Source: Lysobacterales bacterium 66-474 (GTDB taxonomy: Bacteria > Pseudomonadota > Gammaproteobacteria > Xanthomonadales > Rhodanobacteraceae). From it: 64,000 nt of DNA. Within the stretch, counting starts at the first letter, position 1; each line of letters starts with the position of its first letter. Positions 53,165-59,704 of the stretch are shown here, piece by piece. The stretch is taken from positions 186,001 through 250,000 of the forward strand of contig MKWP01000014.1 in assembly GCA_001899805.1 (NCBI GenBank). Reading direction: 5' to 3'. The notes beneath the pieces are model-generated. The model saw only the letters and a program-made list of their open reading frames with translations. It did not search any database and was not told where the DNA came from. The position numbers and the translations under genes were made by a program.

Positions 53165-54376
53165 ATGTCCAGGATCGACGACTACCACGCATGGCCCGAT
53201 GCCCATGGCCGGTTCGGCCCCTACGGCGGCACCTACGTCGCGGAGACCCTGGTCGCGCCGCTGGAAGAACTGAAGGCCGCGTACCTGCGCCTGCGCGACG
53301 ACCCGGCATTCCAGCAGGAATTCGCCGACGACCTGAAGCACTACGTCGGCCGGCCGTCGCCGATCTATCACGCCAGACGCCTGTCGGAAAAAATAGGCGG
53401 TGCGCAAATCCTGCTGAAGCGCGAGGACCTCAACCATACCGGCGCGCACAAGATCAACAACACCGTCGGCCAGGCGCTGGTCGCGCGCGCGATGGGCAAG
53501 CGCCGCATCATTGCGGAAACGGGTGCGGGCCAGCACGGTGTCGCCACCGCCACGGTGTGCGCGCGCTTCGGGATGCAGTGCGTGGTGTACATGGGCGCGG
53601 TCGATATCGAGCGCCAGAAGATCAATGTGTACCGGATGAAGTTGCTGGGTGCCGAAGTGATCCCCGTGACCTCCGGTTCGCAGACGCTGAAGGACGCGCT
53701 GAGCGAAGCGTTGCGCGACTGGGTGAGCAACGTTGCCGATACCTTCTACATCATCGGCACCGTCGCGGGCCCGCATCCGTACCCGATGATGGTGCGCGAT
53801 TTCAACGCGGTGGTCGGGCGCGAGGCACGCGCGCAGATGCTGGAACAGTTCGGGCGCCTGCCCGACGTGCTGACCGCGTGCGTCGGCGGCGGGTCGAATG
53901 CGCTCGGGTTGTTTCATGCTTTCCTCAACGATCGCGATGTGCGCATCGTCGGTGCGGAAGCGGCGGGCGAGGGTATCGCGAGCGGCCACCATGCGGCGTC
54001 GCTTGCGGCCGGTCGGCCCGGCGTGCTGCACGGCAATCGCACGTATGTTCTTTGCGACGACGACGGCCAGATCACCGAAACGCATTCGGTGTCGGCGGGT
54101 CTCGACTATCCGGGGGTCGGTCCCGAACACGCGTTCCTGAAAGACAGCGGCCGCGCTGAGTATGTGGGCGTGACAGACGACGAAGCGCTGGCCGCGTTCC
54201 ACCTGTTGTGTGAAAGCGAAGGGATTCTTCCCGCGCTGGAGTCCAGCCATGCGGTGGCGCAGGCGATCAACCTCGCGCGCGGGTTGTCGAAGGACAAGTT
54301 GATCCTGTGCAATCTCTCCGGTCGCGGCGACAAGGACGTGCACACCATCGCCAAGCGCGAGGGGTTGGAGCTATGA
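53165..54376 (+). CDS. trpB: Tryptophan synthase beta subunit
   Basis: A 403-residue PLP enzyme that joins indole and serine to tryptophan. The PLP lysine is Lys96 in HTGAHKINN, and the phosphate-binding GGGSNA motif lies near residue 240. The C-terminal [10 protein letters not shown] matches the family. The start ATG at 53165 follows GGCGGCA. The normal tight link to trpA is broken here by a palindromic spacer. Confidence 0.96.
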
Positions 54377-54382
54377 GAAGCA

Positions 54383-54512
54383 AGGGACCGGGGACCAGAG
54401 ACCGAGGATCTTGGGCTGTCGGGGTGAATGCGGCGGTATATCAAGCATCATCCCGGTCGATGGCAGGCAGGAGTTTGGCGGCTTTTGGTCCCCGGTCCCC
54501 GGTCCCTGGTCC
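54383..54512. repeat. Palindromic element between trpB and trpA
   Basis: AGGGACCGGGGACC at 54383-54396 has an exact inverted copy at 54494-54507, and the right arm sits in a longer run of GGTCCC units at 54487-54512. About 100 bases lie between. The element fills the trpB-trpA gap almost completely. Similar GGGACC-type strings occur as short repeats in this bacterial order, to my knowledge. Confidence 0.75.
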
Positions 54513-54527
54513 ATGATCCCTGCGGCC

Positions 54528-55334
54528 ATGAATCGCATCGCCACACGTTTCGGCCAACTGCGCGCAACCCGCCGCACCGCGCTGATCCCTTTCATCACCG
54601 CTGGCGATCCGATCCCGGACGCGACGGTCGCCGTGATGCACGCGCTGGTCGAAGGCGGCGCGGACATCATCGAACTCGGCATGCCCTTTTCCGATCCGAT
54701 GGCGGACGGGCCGGTGATCCAGCACGCCGACGAACGTGCGCTGCGCCACAAGGTCGGCATCGCGGACATCCTCGGTTGGGTGCGCGAATTCCGTGCACGC
54801 GACGACGACACGCCGGTGGTGTTGATGGGTTATCTCAATCCCATCGAAATCCACGGCATCGAACTCTTTGCGCACGAGGCGGTAGCCGCTGGCGTGGACG
54901 GCGTGCTCGTCGTCGATTGCCCGATCGAGGAAGATGACACGCTGCAGCCGTTGCGCGATGCGGGTCTTGCGCGCATCCTGCTGGTTGCGCCGACCACGTC
55001 CAGTGCGCGCCTCGCGCGTGCGATCGAAATGGCCGAGGGCTATTTGTATTACGTGTCGTTCGCCGGCATCACCGGCGCGGCGAAATTGTCGGCCGACGCC
55101 ATTCGTGCGCGCGTGGCGGAGATGCGCCAGCGTGCGCAGGTGCCGATCGCCGTCGGCTTCGGCATCAAGGACGCGGCCAGCGCGGAAGCCGTCGCGGAAT
55201 TCGCCGACGCGGTGGTGATCGGCTCGGCGCTGGTCGATGCACTCTCCTCCGCGACGACTGCCGGGGAGGCATGCCGGCAGGCACGCGCCTTCCTCGCACC
55301 GGTCCGGGCGGCTGTGGATTCGATCCAGCGCTGA
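54528..55334 (+). CDS. trpA: Tryptophan synthase alpha subunit
   Basis: A 268-residue TIM-barrel enzyme that cleaves indoleglycerol phosphate. The catalytic Glu lies in IIELGMPFSDPMADG and the catalytic Asp in VDGVLVVDCP; the phosphate loop is VGFGIKDAA. The ATG at 54528 gives the standard start; an in-frame ATG at 54513 would add five residues. It lies 151 bases after trpB, whereas these genes usually touch or overlap. Confidence 0.95.
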   Translation: MNRIATRFGQLRATRRTALIPFITAGDPIPDATVAVMHALVEGGADIIELGMPFSDPMADGPVIQHADERALRHKVGIADILGWVREFRARDDDTPVVLMGYLNPIEIHGIELFAHEAVAAGVDGVLVVDCPIEEDDTLQPLRDAGLARILLVAPTTSSARLARAIEMAEGYLYYVSFAGITGAAKLSADAIRARVAEMRQRAQVPIAVGFGIKDAASAEAVAEFADAVVIGSALVDALSSATTAGEACRQARAFLAPVRAAVDSIQR

Positions 55335-55464
55335 AGACCTTGTTGCGCCGCATCGAATGCTGGCCGCTGCCATTTCGCCTGGCGATCTCCGCGCCGAAAG
55401 GCGCTGACGGGGATCATGCCGTCTACGTCTCCGCCTGTCGCGTGGTGCTGCGCAGCATCAAGGC

Positions 55465-55478
55465 TTGATCTGGATCAA
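55465..55478. promoter_or_regulatory. FNR/Anr-type binding site upstream of the heme-copper cluster
   Basis: TTGATCTGGATCAA matches the FNR consensus TTGAT-N4-ATCAA exactly and is symmetric. It lies 62 bases before the start codon of the CuA subunit gene; TAGTAT at 55490-55495 is a possible -10 box. Low-oxygen activation by an FNR/Anr protein, or control by a related Dnr-type NO sensor, is inferred. Confidence 0.8.
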
Positions 55479-55539
55479 GGAAACTGTTTTAGTATCGCGT
55501 ACAAGCGGCGAATCCAAACTGCAGCGCGGGAGGGGTGCC

Positions 55540-56085
55540 ATGACCCTGCAGGATGTCATCTGGACCATTGCCCTGGTCGGCATGGGGCTGGTCGCGTTGG
55601 GCTTCATCCACGTGATCATCCAGGCGGGCAAGCCCGCCGACGATGCCGCGAGTCGCAAGTCGGCGCACACCGCCCACGTGCTGCAGGCCTGGTTGTTCGC
55701 GATCCTGTTCGTCGGCTTCGTCGCAGGCAGTTGGGCGACGCTGCGCCACTTTCCGATTCCTCCGCAGCATCGCGATCTGGACGTGAAGCAGGTCGTCGAT
55801 GTGGTCGGGCGCCAGTGGTCGTGGCAGATGACGCCGGCTTCAGTGAAGGCAGGCAGTCCGGTCGAGTTCCGCGTACGCAGCGACGACGTCAACCACGGCT
55901 TCGCGCTGTATGCACCCGACGGGCGCATCGTCACCCAGACCCAGGCGATGCCGGGATTCACCAACAAGCTTGTGTATACCTTCGCCGAGCCCGGCACCTA
56001 TGTCGTGCAATGCCTCGAGTATTGCGGACTCGGGCATGGGCCCATGAAGACCACGCTCGAAGTGGTCGCGGCCCAAGGAGAGTGA
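55540..56085 (+). CDS. CuA-containing subunit II of a heme-copper oxidoreductase (norS-like candidate)
   Basis: A 181-residue protein with two N-terminal membrane helices (about 5-28 and 48-70) and a periplasmic cupredoxin domain. The CuA site is complete: His in DVNHGF and the CLEYCGLGHGPM cluster (Cys-x3-Cys-x3-His-x2-Met). It takes electrons from cytochrome c and passes them to subunit I. The ATG at 55540 follows GGGAGGGG. It is the first gene of a four-gene cluster behind an FNR-type box. It may belong to an oxygen reductase or, more likely, to an sNOR-type nitric oxide reductase. Confidence 0.85.
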   Translation: MTLQDVIWTIALVGMGLVALGFIHVIIQAGKPADDAASRKSAHTAHVLQAWLFAILFVGFVAGSWATLRHFPIPPQHRDLDVKQVVDVVGRQWSWQMTPASVKAGSPVEFRVRSDDVNHGFALYAPDGRIVTQTQAMPGFTNKLVYTFAEPGTYVVQCLEYCGLGHGPMKTTLEVVAAQGE

Positions 56086-56087
56086 CC

Positions 56088-57587
56088 ATGGCTTCGCTCA
56101 CCCTGTACCCGGACGACGAGCGGCTGACCGGCGGCACGCGCGCCGCGTTCAACCTGTACATCATCACGGCAGTGGCGCTGTTCGTGCTGATGATGCTGGA
56201 CGGCCTGACCATGCGCATGAGCCAGGCCAAATGGTTGAATGTACCGCCCGACCTTTTCTACCAACTGCTGTCGATGCACGGCGCCGGCATGGTCGGCACC
56301 ATGGCGCTGGTCACGACCGCGGTGATGTGGTTCTTCCTGCGCAAGTACGTGCATTTGCACCTGTGGGCGTTCGTCGCGAACTACGTGTTGTTCATGCTCG
56401 GGGCGGTGTGCATCATCGTCTCGATCTTCGTGGGCGGTTATGGCGCGCTATGGACGTTCCTGTACCCGCTGCCGGTGCACGGGACGGGGCTGTGGACGGG
56501 GGATTGGTCGGCGCTGTTCCTGGTCGGTTACCTCCTGATCGGCGTCGGTTCGCTGTTGTTCTACCTCGACGCGGCGGCGGCGATCATCAAGGTGCATGGC
56601 AACCTGGGCCGCGCGCTGGGCCTGCAATGGCTGTTTGGCGGAACCATCGACCAGAACCACCCGAAGACCGTGGTGGCCAGCACCATGGTCATCATCGCCA
56701 ACTCGCTCGGCATCCTCGCCGGTGCGGTGGTGCTGGTGATGAGCCTCGTCAACATCTTCTATCCCGAGGTGGTGCTCAACGCGCTGGTCGCCAAGAACCT
56801 GATCTACTGGTTCGGCCACATGTACATCAACGCCACGATCTACATGGGGGTGATCGCGGTCTACGAATTGTTGCCGCGCTACACCCGCAAGCCGTATCCG
56901 ATCTCGCGCCCGTTCCTTTGGTCGTGGGCGGTGAGCACGGTATTCGTGATCGTCGTGTTCCCGCACCACTTGTTGATGGACTTCGCGCAACCGCGCTGGC
57001 TCGCGATCATCGGCCAGGTCGTGTCGTGGGGCGCCGGGTTCCCGGTGTTCCTGGTCACGGCATACGGTGCGCTCACCAATCTTTACCGCTCGAACATCCG
57101 CTGGACCATGCCGTCGCGGCTGATGGTGCTGGCGGTGTTCGGTTGGGCGGCGGGCATCGTGCCGGCCATCCTCGACGGCACCATCCGCAACAACCTGGTG
57201 ATGCACAACACGCAATGGGTGCCGGGCCATTTCCATTTCTACCTGCTGCTCGGCGTGCTGGCGATGGCGCTGGCTCTGATGTTCCACGTGATCGGCAGCC
57301 GCGTGAACGAGCCGCCCAATTCGCGCATGGACAAGGCGGGGTTCCCGTTGTACCTGTTCGGTGGCCTGATCTTCGTGTTCGCGTTCCTCGATGCCGGCCA
57401 CCTCAGCGTGCCGCGACGGATGGCCGAGCACCTGGATGCGTGGACCTTCACCGACAAGCTTGGCTCGATCGGCGCGATCCTGGTGGTGCTGGCGATGCTG
57501 TACTTCGCGATCCGGATCACGACCGGGCTGTTGAAGTCGCCGGCACCGGGAGGTGCGCGTGTCGGTGTTCCGGACGCTGCTGGCTAG
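56088..57587 (+). CDS. Catalytic subunit I of heme-copper family, lacking the active-site Tyr; candidate nitric oxide reductase (sNOR, norY-like)
   Basis: A 499-residue, about 12-helix membrane protein. Metal ligands are present: His64 (low-spin heme), His244 and the pair His293-His294 (CuB), and His381/His383 in PGHFHF (heme pair). Oxygen reductases of types A and B carry a Tyr four residues after the first CuB His (GHPxVY); here the sequence is GHMYIN, giving Asn248. No replacement Tyr is obvious. Loss of this Tyr is a hallmark of NO reductases derived from oxidases. With the CuA gene before it and SCO/SenC plus a membrane protein after it, the order equals norSY-senC-orf1 of nitrifiers. 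An AAGGAG box precedes the start. Confidence 0.8.
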   Translation: MASLTLYPDDERLTGGTRAAFNLYIITAVALFVLMMLDGLTMRMSQAKWLNVPPDLFYQLLSMHGAGMVGTMALVTTAVMWFFLRKYVHLHLWAFVANYVLFMLGAVCIIVSIFVGGYGALWTFLYPLPVHGTGLWTGDWSALFLVGYLLIGVGSLLFYLDAAAAIIKVHGNLGRALGLQWLFGGTIDQNHPKTVVASTMVIIANSLGILAGAVVLVMSLVNIFYPEVVLNALVAKNLIYWFGHMYINATIYMGVIAVYELLPRYTRKPYPISRPFLWSWAVSTVFVIVVFPHHLLMDFAQPRWLAIIGQVVSWGAGFPVFLVTAYGALTNLYRSNIRWTMPSRLMVLAVFGWAAGIVPAILDGTIRNNLVMHNTQWVPGHFHFYLLLGVLAMALALMFHVIGSRVNEPPNSRMDKAGFPLYLFGGLIFVFAFLDAGHLSVPRRMAEHLDAWTFTDKLGSIGAILVVLAMLYFAIRITTGLLKSPAPGGARVGVPDAAG

Positions 57588-58176
57588 CCTCGTGATCCTC
57601 GCGGCCGGCGTCGCGACGCTGGCCGCCGCCACCCACGGCTTCCGCGCGTTCACTTCGGAAACCGCGCGCCGCATCGACGTGCGCGAACATCCGCGCGCAT
57701 TGCCGGCGGTGCCGTTGCAGACCGCCAGCGGCGAACACATCGACTTTTCCGGCCTGCGCGGTCGCTGGCTGCTGGTGGATTTCATCTACACGCGCTGCAT
57801 GACGTATTGCTCGGTGCAGGGCAGCGAGTTCGCGCGCCTGCAGGGCCGGTTGGCCGATCCGATTGCGCACGACCAGGTCATGCTCCTGAGCGTCAGCTTC
57901 GATCCGGCCCACGATGGTCCGGAGCAATTGCGTGCGTACCAGCAGCGTTCGGGCGACCGCGGCGCGGGCTGGATCGCGGCACGCCCGACGAATACGGCCG
58001 ACCTCGATGCGCTGATGCAGGTGTTCGGCGTGACCGCGATCCCCGACGGGCTCGGCGGTTACGTACACAATGCCGCGATCGCGGTGGTCGATCCGCAAGG
58101 GCGGCTGGTTGCGATCACGGATTGGGATGCCCCGGACGATGCCGAACGGTACGTGCGGCGCGGGTTGGCGCGATGA
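57559..58176 (+). CDS. SCO1/SenC-family copper chaperone
   Basis: About 205 residues with one N-terminal membrane anchor (about 5-25) and a thioredoxin-like periplasmic domain. Copper ligands are the two Cys in YTRCMTYCS (Cys-x3-Cys) and the His in GGYVHN. It probably delivers copper to the CuA site of the cluster's subunit II. The GTG at 57559 has GGGAGG a few bases upstream; GTG 57553 is an alternative. It overlaps the end of the subunit I gene by 29 bases. Confidence 0.86.
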   Translation: MSVFRTLLASLVILAAGVATLAAATHGFRAFTSETARRIDVREHPRALPAVPLQTASGEHIDFSGLRGRWLLVDFIYTRCMTYCSVQGSEFARLQGRLADPIAHDQVMLLSVSFDPAHDGPEQLRAYQQRSGDRGAGWIAARPTNTADLDALMQVFGVTAIPDGLGGYVHNAAIAVVDPQGRLVAITDWDAPDDAERYVRRGLAR

Positions 58177-58766
58177 TCGCGTGGTCGCGCTGGCGGCCCT
58201 GGCTGGGCGCGTTGCTGTGGCTGGCGTTGGCGCTGCCGCCGCTGCGGCACGCCACGCAAGCCACGATGACCTTGCAGATGCTGGTCCAGATTCCGATGCT
58301 CGCGATCGCCGGCTGGTGGCTGCGGCCCTGGTTGCCACGGAGGGCGGCCGACGCGCTGGAGGCGTGGAACGGGGGAGGCATCAGCGGAATCGTGCTGGCC
58401 TCTCTCGTCGCAATGGTCTGGATGCTGCCGCGGATGATGGACGCTTCGCTGGACAACCCATGGATCGCGCTGGCGAAGTTTGCAAGCGTGCCGCTGCTGG
58501 TTGGCCTGGCGCTTGCGGTCAGCTGGCCGCGTGCGGGGTTCGTGGTGCGCGGGGTGTTCCTGCTCGAGGTTGTCGCGACGGCGTTCCGGCTGGGCTGGCT
58601 GTACCGGGTTTCGCCGGTGCGGCTGTGCAGCAATTACCTCCTGGATGACCAGCAACGGCTGGGCAACGTGATGCTCGCGCTGGGGGTGGCGATCTGCCTG
58701 GTGCTGGCCTGGAAGCTGGTGTGGGGGCGCATCGACATCGACGGGGCACGCGGCAACCGGGCCTGA
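58173..58766 (+). CDS. Membrane protein of heme-copper cluster (orf1-like)
   Basis: A 197-residue protein with about five to six membrane helices and little soluble part. It overlaps the SCO gene by four bases (ATGA) and closes the cluster. Its place fits the orf1 product of norSY-senC-orf1 operons, a conserved membrane protein of unknown function, possibly in assembly or copper handling. No motif was recognised. Confidence 0.75.
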
Positions 58767-58840
58767 CCGGGAAGCCTGTCCGGCAGGGCCGCCGCGTGAC
58801 GTTGTATCCTACGCGGCTGGAATCACCGCAGGGGCCCCTC

Positions 58841-59704
58841 GTGTCCTGGCTGCAGAAATTGACCACGCCCAAAATCCGTACCGAAGGCGCGCCTGCCCGC
58901 GGCAAGGTGCCGGAGGGCGTGTGGGAGAAATGCGCCGGCTGCGGGATCGGCCTGTACCGACCGGAACTCGAACGCAACCTGATGGTGTGCCCGAAGTGCG
59001 GCCACCATCACCCGATCGGCGCGCGCGCGCGCCTGGCGTCATTCCTCGACGAGGGCGGTGATGAGCTGGACGCGAACCTGGGTCCGGTCGATACGCTGAA
59101 ATTCAAGGACTCCAAGCGGTATCGCGACCGCATCCTCGCGGCCCAGAAGGCCACCGGGGAGAAGGATGCGCTGGTGACGGTGAAAGGCGCGCTCAAGGGC
59201 ATACCGGCCGTCGCGTGCGCGTTCGAATTTTCCTACATGGGCGGTTCGATGGGCTCGGTGGTGGGCGAAAAATTCACCCGCGCCGCCGAAGCCGCGCTGC
59301 GCGACAAGATCCCGCTGGTGTGCTTCACGGCCACCGGCGGCGCGCGCATGCAGGAAGGCCTGCAGTCGTTGATGCAGATGGCCAAGACCTCCGCGGCGCT
59401 GGCGCGTTTGCGCAAGGCCGGCCTGCCGTACATCGTGGTCCTGACCCACCCGACCACCGGCGGCGTGTCCGCCAGCCTCGCGATGCTGGGCGACATCCAC
59501 ATCGCCGAACCCAAGGCGCTGATCGGCTTCGCGGGTCCGCGCGTGATCGAGCAGACCGTGCGCGAGACGCTGCCGGAAGGCTTCCAGCGTTCGGAGTTCC
59601 TGCTGGAGCACGGCGCGATCGACATGATCTGCGATCGCCGCGAACTGCGCGACCGCATCGCGGAATTGCTTGCGATCCTGACGCATCACGACAAGGTGGC
59701 GTGA
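58841..59704 (+). CDS. accD: Acetyl-CoA carboxylase carboxyltransferase beta subunit
   Basis: A 287-residue subunit of the carboxyltransferase that makes malonyl-CoA for fatty-acid synthesis. The N-terminal zinc ribbon (CAGCG ... CPKCG, residues about 30-52) is complete, followed by the crotonase-fold domain with GGARMQEG and TTGGVSAS. The start is the GTG at 58841. folC normally follows accD closely in this order; here a 711-base palindromic region lies between. Confidence 0.95.

Follow-up and report, generated by a model that had tools for sequence, protein, structure and literature searches.

Heme-copper enzymes of the sNOR type pose the question of whether they turn over NO or O2, and the window examined here, a stretch of 64 kb of DNA, carries an operon to which this question applies. 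The NOR families were reportedly defined by Murali et al. 2024. The definitions of sNOR and the other NOR families used in this study were drawn from sections of PMC8756737, PMC3475470, PMC11388526, PMC6967387, PMC12569097, PMC4940428, PMC3772326 and PMC6094997, in which it is a matter of dispute which of the two gases sNOR turns over. KEGG annotates sNOR as cytochrome c oxidase (coxA), as stated in part of PMC11388526, and counts of NO reduction and N2O production may for this reason be too low. The preliminary description had assigned the operon to the sNOR family, which is supported by the tree, Asn248 of the catalytic subunit, the gene order and an FNR box. The operon is another case of this already described family with its disputed turnover.

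Organization of the norSY operon

All four genes, norS, norY, senC and orf1, are present and form a single plus-strand operon (Table 1). The order of CuA subunit, catalytic subunit, SCO/SenC and membrane protein, which had been equated with norSY-senC-orf1, recurred in 76 of 82 related loci; five of the remaining six have too little contig ahead of norY. The search for relatives kept the best 80 of 350. Pfam matches above cut-off were obtained for the COX2 periplasmic (CuA) domain in NorS, COX1 in NorY and SCO1/SenC in SenC. The CuA ligands of NorS (H119, C158, E160, C162, H166 and M169) are invariant in 10/10 aligned NorS sequences, as are C82, C86 and H172 in 7/7 aligned SenC sequences. Orf1 gave no match in Pfam, NCBIfam or PHROGs and probably assists assembly.

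Table 1 Features of the norSY operon in the window
Feature	Position	Strand	Description
FNR box TTGATCTGGATCAA	55465..55478		perfect match to TTGATNNNNATCAA
probable −10 hexamer TACAAG	55500..55505	+	predicted
norS	55540..56085	+	CuA electron-entry subunit, 181 aa; ATG start at 55540
norY	56088..57587	+	catalytic heme-copper subunit, 499 aa
senC	57553..58176	+	SCO1/SenC copper-insertion protein; GTG start as listed
orf1	58173..58766	+	hydrophobic protein corresponding to orf1 of norSY-senC-orf1

Phylogenetic placement of NorY

A first tree was built from 49 of 120 prepared rows and likewise supports the family assignment. A 63-row tree comprised these rows without L129, plus six of 14 ba3-like and nine of 16 mid-scoring loci. 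In this tree NorY lies inside a 38-row sNOR clade (support 100/100), which includes Nitrococcus mobilis, Nitrosomonas SJ624 and Ruegeria pomeroyi. The last was formerly named Silicibacter, nitrifiers plus Silicibacter being the criterion for an sNOR clade. The clade is separate from ba3, eNOR-like and A-type enzymes; the 11 ba3 rows all fall outside it, and ba3 and eNOR-like rows group together (100/98). NorY thus stands apart from the oxygen reductases, as the proposed check of subunit I phylogeny had asked, in a tree whose rows contain neither a bNOR nor N. europaea; the distinction of sNOR from bNOR rests on other features.

By family, a ba3 or A-type oxygen reductase was rejected, since the cross-linked Tyr is absent and the clade is separate. 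An eNOR was rejected as well, with Asn instead of Gln at the Tyr position and the Gln group separate in the tree. A qNOR has a fused cytochrome c-like domain; in NorY, COX1 is the only domain matched and CuA is encoded by a partner gene, and norY is distinct from the genome's own qNOR gene.

Active-site residues of NorY

Residues were compared in 108 NorY rows, from which copies or fragments among the profile hits (L007, L014, L018, L032, L100 and L105) and likewise the A-type L015–L017, L019 and L020 had been dropped. The rows hold 95 distinct sequences, because 12 genomes were present in both of two collections and one sequence occurs in a pair of records. L106 was dropped from alignment A6 owing to a stop within its stretch. 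As claimed in the preliminary description, the heme and CuB histidines are retained: H64, H244, H293, H294, H381 and H383, the six metal-binding residues, are invariant in all 108 rows. Equally borne out was the replacement of the cross-linked Tyr. The NorY motif FGHMYIN corresponds to FGHPxVY, with Asn248 at the place of the cross-linked Tyr of oxygen reductases; position 248 is Asn in 108/108 rows, beyond what chance would give, and Tyr in 6/6 ba3 and 5/5 A-type comparison rows. Asn is also the sNOR residue at this position in Table A4 of PMC8756737, and the same residue occurs in a purified NO reductase, qCuANOR of B. azotoformans (PMC3475470, section 15 part 1).

Whether a Tyr from another helix takes over had been raised as a point against the assignment, and the answer is divided. 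In the cbb3 of this genome, helix VII carries a Tyr six residues ahead of the His pair; the NorY rows have Val (107/108) or Ile (1/108) there, so that a Tyr is missing at this place. Two residues ahead of the pair, Tyr291 is found in 45/108 rows, including Nitrococcus, Nitrosomonas SJ624 and Ruegeria, and the window NorY has Phe. Furthermore, Tyr252, one helical turn below Asn248, is present in 108/108 NorY rows and in none of the ba3 or A-type rows. In NorY another Tyr may approach the active site. An ideal-helix estimate, calculated on a coarse rotamer grid with clashes unchecked as a stand-in for AlphaFold model distances, placed the Tyr252 hydroxyl at least 7.1 Å from His244 NE2, too far for a cross-link to His244 in such a helix, and Asn248 within reach of Tyr252.

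An sNOR is described as having no conserved proton channel. At the level of sequence, three ba3 K-path positions are lost in NorY (V255 in 105/108, V320 in 105/108 and G327 in 106/108 rows) and two are retained (Y259 and T324). In profile matches of NorY to the PDB ba3 chains were among the best. The AlphaFold model of NorY (pLDDT 84.9, pTM 0.88) matched bo3 and aa3 oxidases best by fold, with a ba3 chain at rank 50; the predicted model and its matches confirm the heme-copper fold and nothing finer.

We tentatively propose, though the idea is rather doubtful, that the active-site Tyr of sNOR has shifted one helical turn down to Tyr252 and could form a second-shell proton/electron relay with Asn248. 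If true, this would set sNOR apart by its chemistry as a reductase of NO (or of NO and O2), and the opposed proposals on its substrate could be reconciled. The invariant Asn248/Tyr252 pair makes the substrate question accessible to structural and substitution tests.

The FNR box and its surroundings

The perfect FNR-type box described ahead of the operon is the sole perfect one in the window. The 3.73-Mb genome holds six perfect sites including this one, versus 0 for a reversed control pattern. Others lie ahead of narK-like-narG and ahead of a cbb3 gene; one is located 3′ of hemN between convergent genes and so does not precede a gene. With TACAAG as the −10 hexamer, the centre of the norS box would be near −40.5 (class II-like). 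The gap between box and hexamer is 21 nt in the window as well as in loci L043 and L046, where a perfect box likewise precedes a −10-like hexamer; L057 has TGTAAA at the hexamer place. A box with at most one mismatch was found in 8 of 78 norS-operon upstream regions, window included, where letter shuffles expect 0.4. Because so few regions have it, FNR control appears to be local and not a family trait. The genome encodes a Crp/Fnr protein with FNR-spaced cysteines, and the norSY operon is probably under FNR control, which would fit the role of an NO reductase and that of an oxidase alike.

Neighbouring genes and genome inventory

No NO-related genes were seen beside the window's own operon, and they occur in small minorities of the 81 related loci. 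Rrf2 regulators are close by in 12/81 loci (nine downstream and three upstream of norY). The best model for six scanned Rrf2 proteins was NsrR in five and RirA in one, all below the NsrR cut-off, and only 5/10 Rrf2 proteins match an Fe–S cluster cysteine pattern made for this analysis. A formate/nitrite-family transporter gene lies near norSY in 4/81 loci and a flavohemoglobin above cut-off in 2/81. The other two members of the flavohemoglobin-like neighbour cluster were one PaaE-type reductase above cut-off and one protein below every cut-off. These genes beside some relatives lend modest, independent support to the NO role that is disputed for nitrifiers in part of PMC6967387.

The genome carries NarG, a qNOR adjoining NnrS and four further non-NOR COX1 genes for O2. 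A genome search found no NirS, no NosZ and no NirK above cut-off. A NirK candidate at C14:348373 was rejected (39.6 bits versus a cut-off of 296.3; multicopper oxidase by Pfam). The window is a clean example of an sNOR with an FNR box in a genome with qNOR in which NirS and NosZ were not found.

Proposed function and alternatives

Clade, residues, gene order and genome inventory point to an sNOR (norSY) that is probably an NO scavenger at low oxygen in nitrate respiration. We consider it likely that this operon, probably FNR-controlled, reduces NO to N2O for NO removal under these conditions. A periplasmic cytochrome c or cupredoxin would deliver electrons to CuA of NorS, from where the low-spin heme of NorY (H64/H383) would receive them and hand them to the site formed by the high-spin heme (H381) and CuB (H244, H293 and H294). 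There two NO would be converted to N2O; Asn248 stands where oxygen reductases have the Tyr that serves in O–O cleavage. SenC would load copper into CuA. The enzyme would clear NO during nitrate respiration at low oxygen alongside the quinol-dependent qNOR. Detoxification or partial denitrification had both been suggested earlier; the former stands, and the latter is less likely because NirS, NosZ and above-cut-off NirK were not found. The presence of NarG and a separate qNOR was weighed along with this. The papers cited here contain no report of a purified sNOR from this clade.

NorSY might instead be a high-affinity oxygen reductase that works without the canonical Tyr by another proton/electron donor and reduces NO as a side activity. 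Part of PMC6967387 argues from transcription that the N. europaea sNOR may be such an oxidase; in this genome an FNR box is common to norSY and a cbb3 gene, and the invariant Tyr252 and the frequent Tyr291 speak for the same. Nevertheless, the missing canonical Tyr, the loss of three K-path positions, the distance of Tyr252 from His244 in the ideal helix, Phe at residue 291 of the window NorY and the NO-related neighbours at some relatives make this unlikely. The same part of PMC6967387 states that some oxygen reductases are known to reduce NO as a side reaction, which together with the FNR box common to cbb3 and nitrate-reductase genes would suit a bifunctional enzyme that clears both gases at low oxygen and thereby shields respiration. 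This we judge quite improbable, as canonical Tyr and K-path residues are lost and four other COX1 genes serve O2. Very improbable is a bNOR (CuANOR), which shares the Asn and the clustered SenC and six-helix protein: the predicted transcription start about 28 nt from norS leaves no room for its small upstream peptide gene, and here too the three lost K-path positions count against it.

Comparison with known systems

NorSY of the window shares with the sNOR of ammonia oxidizers the order of the genes, the Asn that replaces Tyr, a CuA subunit and the clade, the clade being represented by Nitrosomonas SJ624 (L119) and N. europaea by its published gene order (NE0683-86 in part of PMC4940428). The SJ624 NorY is 49% identical and has Ile where the window has Tyr246; the window differs from the ammonia oxidizers by its FNR box and by its nearest named kin, which are Rhodanobacteraceae/Lysobacteraceae among the matches listed. 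As described in part of PMC3475470, the Bacillus azotoformans bNOR/qCuANOR shares Asn for Tyr, CuA subunit, SenC and six-helix protein, but has an extra 46-aa peptide gene upstream. The ba3 (B-type) oxygen reductase has fold and His ligands in common with NorY, whereas it keeps the Tyr and the K-path residues and forms a separate clade. The eNOR-like heme-copper enzymes of Gammaproteobacteria (L163–L178) have lost the Tyr as NorY has, but carry Gln in its place and group with ba3 rather than sNOR. The homologue of Nitrococcus mobilis Nb-231 (L086) is 67% identical, has the same four genes and belongs to the same subclade; unlike the window, its locus contains a flavohemoglobin gene and its NorY has Phe246 and Tyr291.

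Operon organization

The genes norS, norY, senC and orf1 lie on a single strand, overlapping or separated by gaps of 2 nt (see the table), and their order is the one anticipated in the preliminary description. The available part of PMC4940428 lists norSY-senC-orf1. The NCBIfam oxidase models CoxB and CtaD_CoxA match NorS (80.1 bits, cut-off 147.7) and NorY (64.8 bits, cut-off 670.75) below their cut-offs only, and therefore the enzyme is not named by any NCBIfam model. The residues H119, C158, E160, C162, H166 and M169 are invariant in 10 of 10 aligned NorS sequences, as are C82, C86 and H172 in seven of seven SenC sequences.

Genes of the norSY operon and further perfect FNR boxes of the genome
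Feature	Position	Strand	Assignment or location
norS	55540-56085	+	Pfam COX2, 33 bits (cut-off 22)
norY	56088-57587	+	Pfam COX1, 169 bits (cut-off 34.8)
senC	57553-58176	+	Pfam SCO1-SenC, 54.8 bits (cut-off 22.8)
orf1	58173-58766	+	no Pfam match
FNR box			before MFS transporter gene (narK-like) directly preceding narG
FNR box			before cbb3 gene (motif GHNAVAF)
FNR boxes L134 and L135	G000 C1:257634 and C1:264501		before MKILLPVDG ORF and hemerythrin-domain gene
FNR box			downstream of hemN, between convergent genes

The same order on one strand recurs in 76 of 82 loci, namely the best 80 of 350 relatives and two plasmids, from which the detection profiles themselves were grown. Five of the six exceptions have about 260 nt of contig or less ahead of norY, while in the sixth, from Thermomicrobium (L124), senC and orf1 are absent by these profiles. 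In this locus a formate/nitrite transporter follows norY in place of senC.

The operon is flanked by trpBA upstream and by accD and folC downstream (gene names judged from translations), its place between trpBA and accD being covered by positions 53165-59704. An accD-like cluster is found downstream in seven and a trpB-like cluster upstream in six of 81 related loci; thus, this site is common to part of the family. According to a rough gene call over these 81 loci, Rrf2 regulators are present in 12 (downstream in nine, upstream in three), formate/nitrite-family transporters in four (NirC as best model in three, all below the cut-off) and a flavohemoglobin above the cut-off of 432 in two (Nitrococcus 525.8, Thioalkalivibrio 561.8). 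All six Rrf2 proteins scanned exceeded the superfamily cut-off, with NsrR as best model in five (100.8-129.8 bits, under the cut-off of 182) and RirA in one, and a simple motif search revealed a cysteine pattern in five of 10 such proteins. None of these three gene types adjoins the operon of the window.

Active site of NorY

The active sites were compared on aligned sequences, comprising 108 NorY rows (that of the window among them, 95 being distinct), six ba3, five A-type and one C-type sequence; the NorY rows were gathered with NorY queries and are relatives by construction. FGHMYIN of NorY aligns onto FGHPxVY of the A-type and ba3 chains. As had been proposed, all heme and CuB histidines are kept (H64, H244, H293, H294, H381 and H383, invariant in all 108 rows) and Asn248 replaces the cross-linked Tyr: position 248 is Asn in every NorY row, Tyr in none of them, and Tyr in all ba3 and A-type chains. 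Of the five residues that we take to make up the ba3 K-path, three are lost in NorY (V255 and V320 in 105 rows each, G327 in 106) and two are kept throughout (Y259, T324). Table A4 of PMC8756737 lists sNOR with Asn and with 0 proton channels, and in the available part of PMC3475470 the purified qCuANOR of B. azotoformans has Asn at the same place.

A Tyr from another helix might take over the role of the missing residue, as the preliminary description considered. The helix-VII Tyr of the cbb3 oxidase of this genome, six residues before the His pair, is presumably its cross-link Tyr; NorY carries Val (107 rows) or Ile (one row) there. Residue 291, two before the CuB His pair, is Tyr in 45 rows, among them nitrifiers (Nitrococcus, Nitrosomonas SJ624) as well as Ruegeria, Phe in 62 including the window, and Val in one; this Tyr is no family constant. 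Tyr252, four residues after Asn248, is present in all 108 sNOR rows, and its equivalent is Met or Leu in the six ba3 and Leu in the five A-type chains. Reach was estimated on ideal helix geometry only, in which a control Tyr at 248 reaches His244 as in the known cross-link (ring carbon to NE2 1.2 A). In this model the OH of Tyr252 stays at least 7.1 A from His244 NE2 and can come within 2.3 A of the Asn248 side chain. Therefore, Tyr252 can be a second-shell partner of Asn248, rather than a substitute cross-link, and the pair is a detail worth a structural test.

Phylogeny and distribution

In a tree of 49 rows the window falls within a 38-row clade (100/99), with ba3 and A-type outside. When the whole class was searched with ba3 rows, 110 of 369 genomes gave a match at E <= 1e-20, a count that takes in A-type-like scores, and 30 loci were gained. 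Fourteen are high-scoring and ba3-like (HxxVY in 13, the remaining one a fragment). The other 16 are mid-scoring, and all but one of them have the motif GHSSQQ or GHPSQQ. The latter loci (L163-L178) encode ba3-related proteins of Gammaproteobacteria with Gln at the Tyr position (15 of 16), the mark of eNOR according to PMC8756737 (Table A4). A 63-row tree, which took in nine mid-scoring (Gln) and six ba3-like loci, resolved sNOR as a single clade (100/100), eNOR-like (100/100) and ba3 (75/94), the last two joining each other at 100/98. In both trees, built without bNOR and N. europaea NorY, subunit I of the window clusters with sNOR, apart from ba3 and A-type sequences and, in the larger tree, from eNOR-like ones, and the expected placement is upheld. 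The enzyme is almost certainly a member of sNOR, a family already known. L033 and L124, distant relatives whose placement on long branches is unsure, may form a separate NOR subgroup; they likewise bear the Asn (GHTFTN, GHTLVN).

Named members of the clade among the best 80 of 350 relatives are, for instance, Nitrococcus mobilis Nb-231 (67% NorY identity), Nitrosomonas SJ624 (49%), Castellaniella caeni, Comamonas badia and several Rhodanobacter; Ruegeria pomeroyi DSS-3, with a NorY 45% identical, belongs to it as well. At E <= 1e-30, NorY was matched in 14 of the 147 family genomes (six of 26 genera) and in 14 of the 369 class genomes, each count taking in the own genome. The Castellaniella and Comamonas rows are nested among Rhodanobacteraceae rows in the 49-row tree, which suggests that norY has spread by horizontal transfer. 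In a genome of the same genus (G001) norY is present twice, with identities of 86% and 74% to the gene of the window, the second copy being cut by a contig end.

Function in the genomic context

A high-affinity oxidase has been argued for N. europaea in the available part of PMC6967387, which also cites indirect NO-reductase evidence for Nitrococcus mobilis, a near neighbour of the window in the NorY tree. We consider NO reduction the probable main role of the enzyme. A literature search, judged largely by title, found no paper on sNOR in Rhodanobacter or Xanthomonadales.

Six COX1 proteins are encoded in the genome: NorY, a qNOR adjoining NnrS, two A-type proteins with GHPEVY, one cbb3, and a sixth sitting in the cbb3 cluster. 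NarG is present (2123 bits). NosZ (model TIGR04244; clade II model outside the search) and NirS were not found, nor was NirK above the cut-off. Therefore, NO would stem from side reactions on nitrite or from outside. Of the two functions initially suggested, detoxification is favoured, since scavenging of NO would fit the genome better than classical denitrification.

Regulation

The perfect FNR box noticed ahead of the operon, TTGATCTGGATCAA, is indeed the sole one within the window; the whole genome has six, and a reversed control pattern gave none. The ORF starting with MKILLPVDG begins about 80 nt past its box. The promoter role of the box near hemN is not clear because of its position between convergent genes. 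Counted anywhere within 400 nt, boxes with no more than one mismatch are present in eight of 78 upstream regions (window included; 0.4 expected from letter shuffles), and perfect ones in five (0 expected). A gap of 21 nt separates the box from a TACAAG hexamer in the window and in the related loci L043 and L046, whereas L057 has TGTAAA in the position of the hexamer; by this spacing, the box centre would lie near -40.5. Furthermore, a Crp/Fnr protein is encoded in the genome, and close to its N-terminus it has the pattern C-x2-C-x5-C, which we take to be the motif of FNR.
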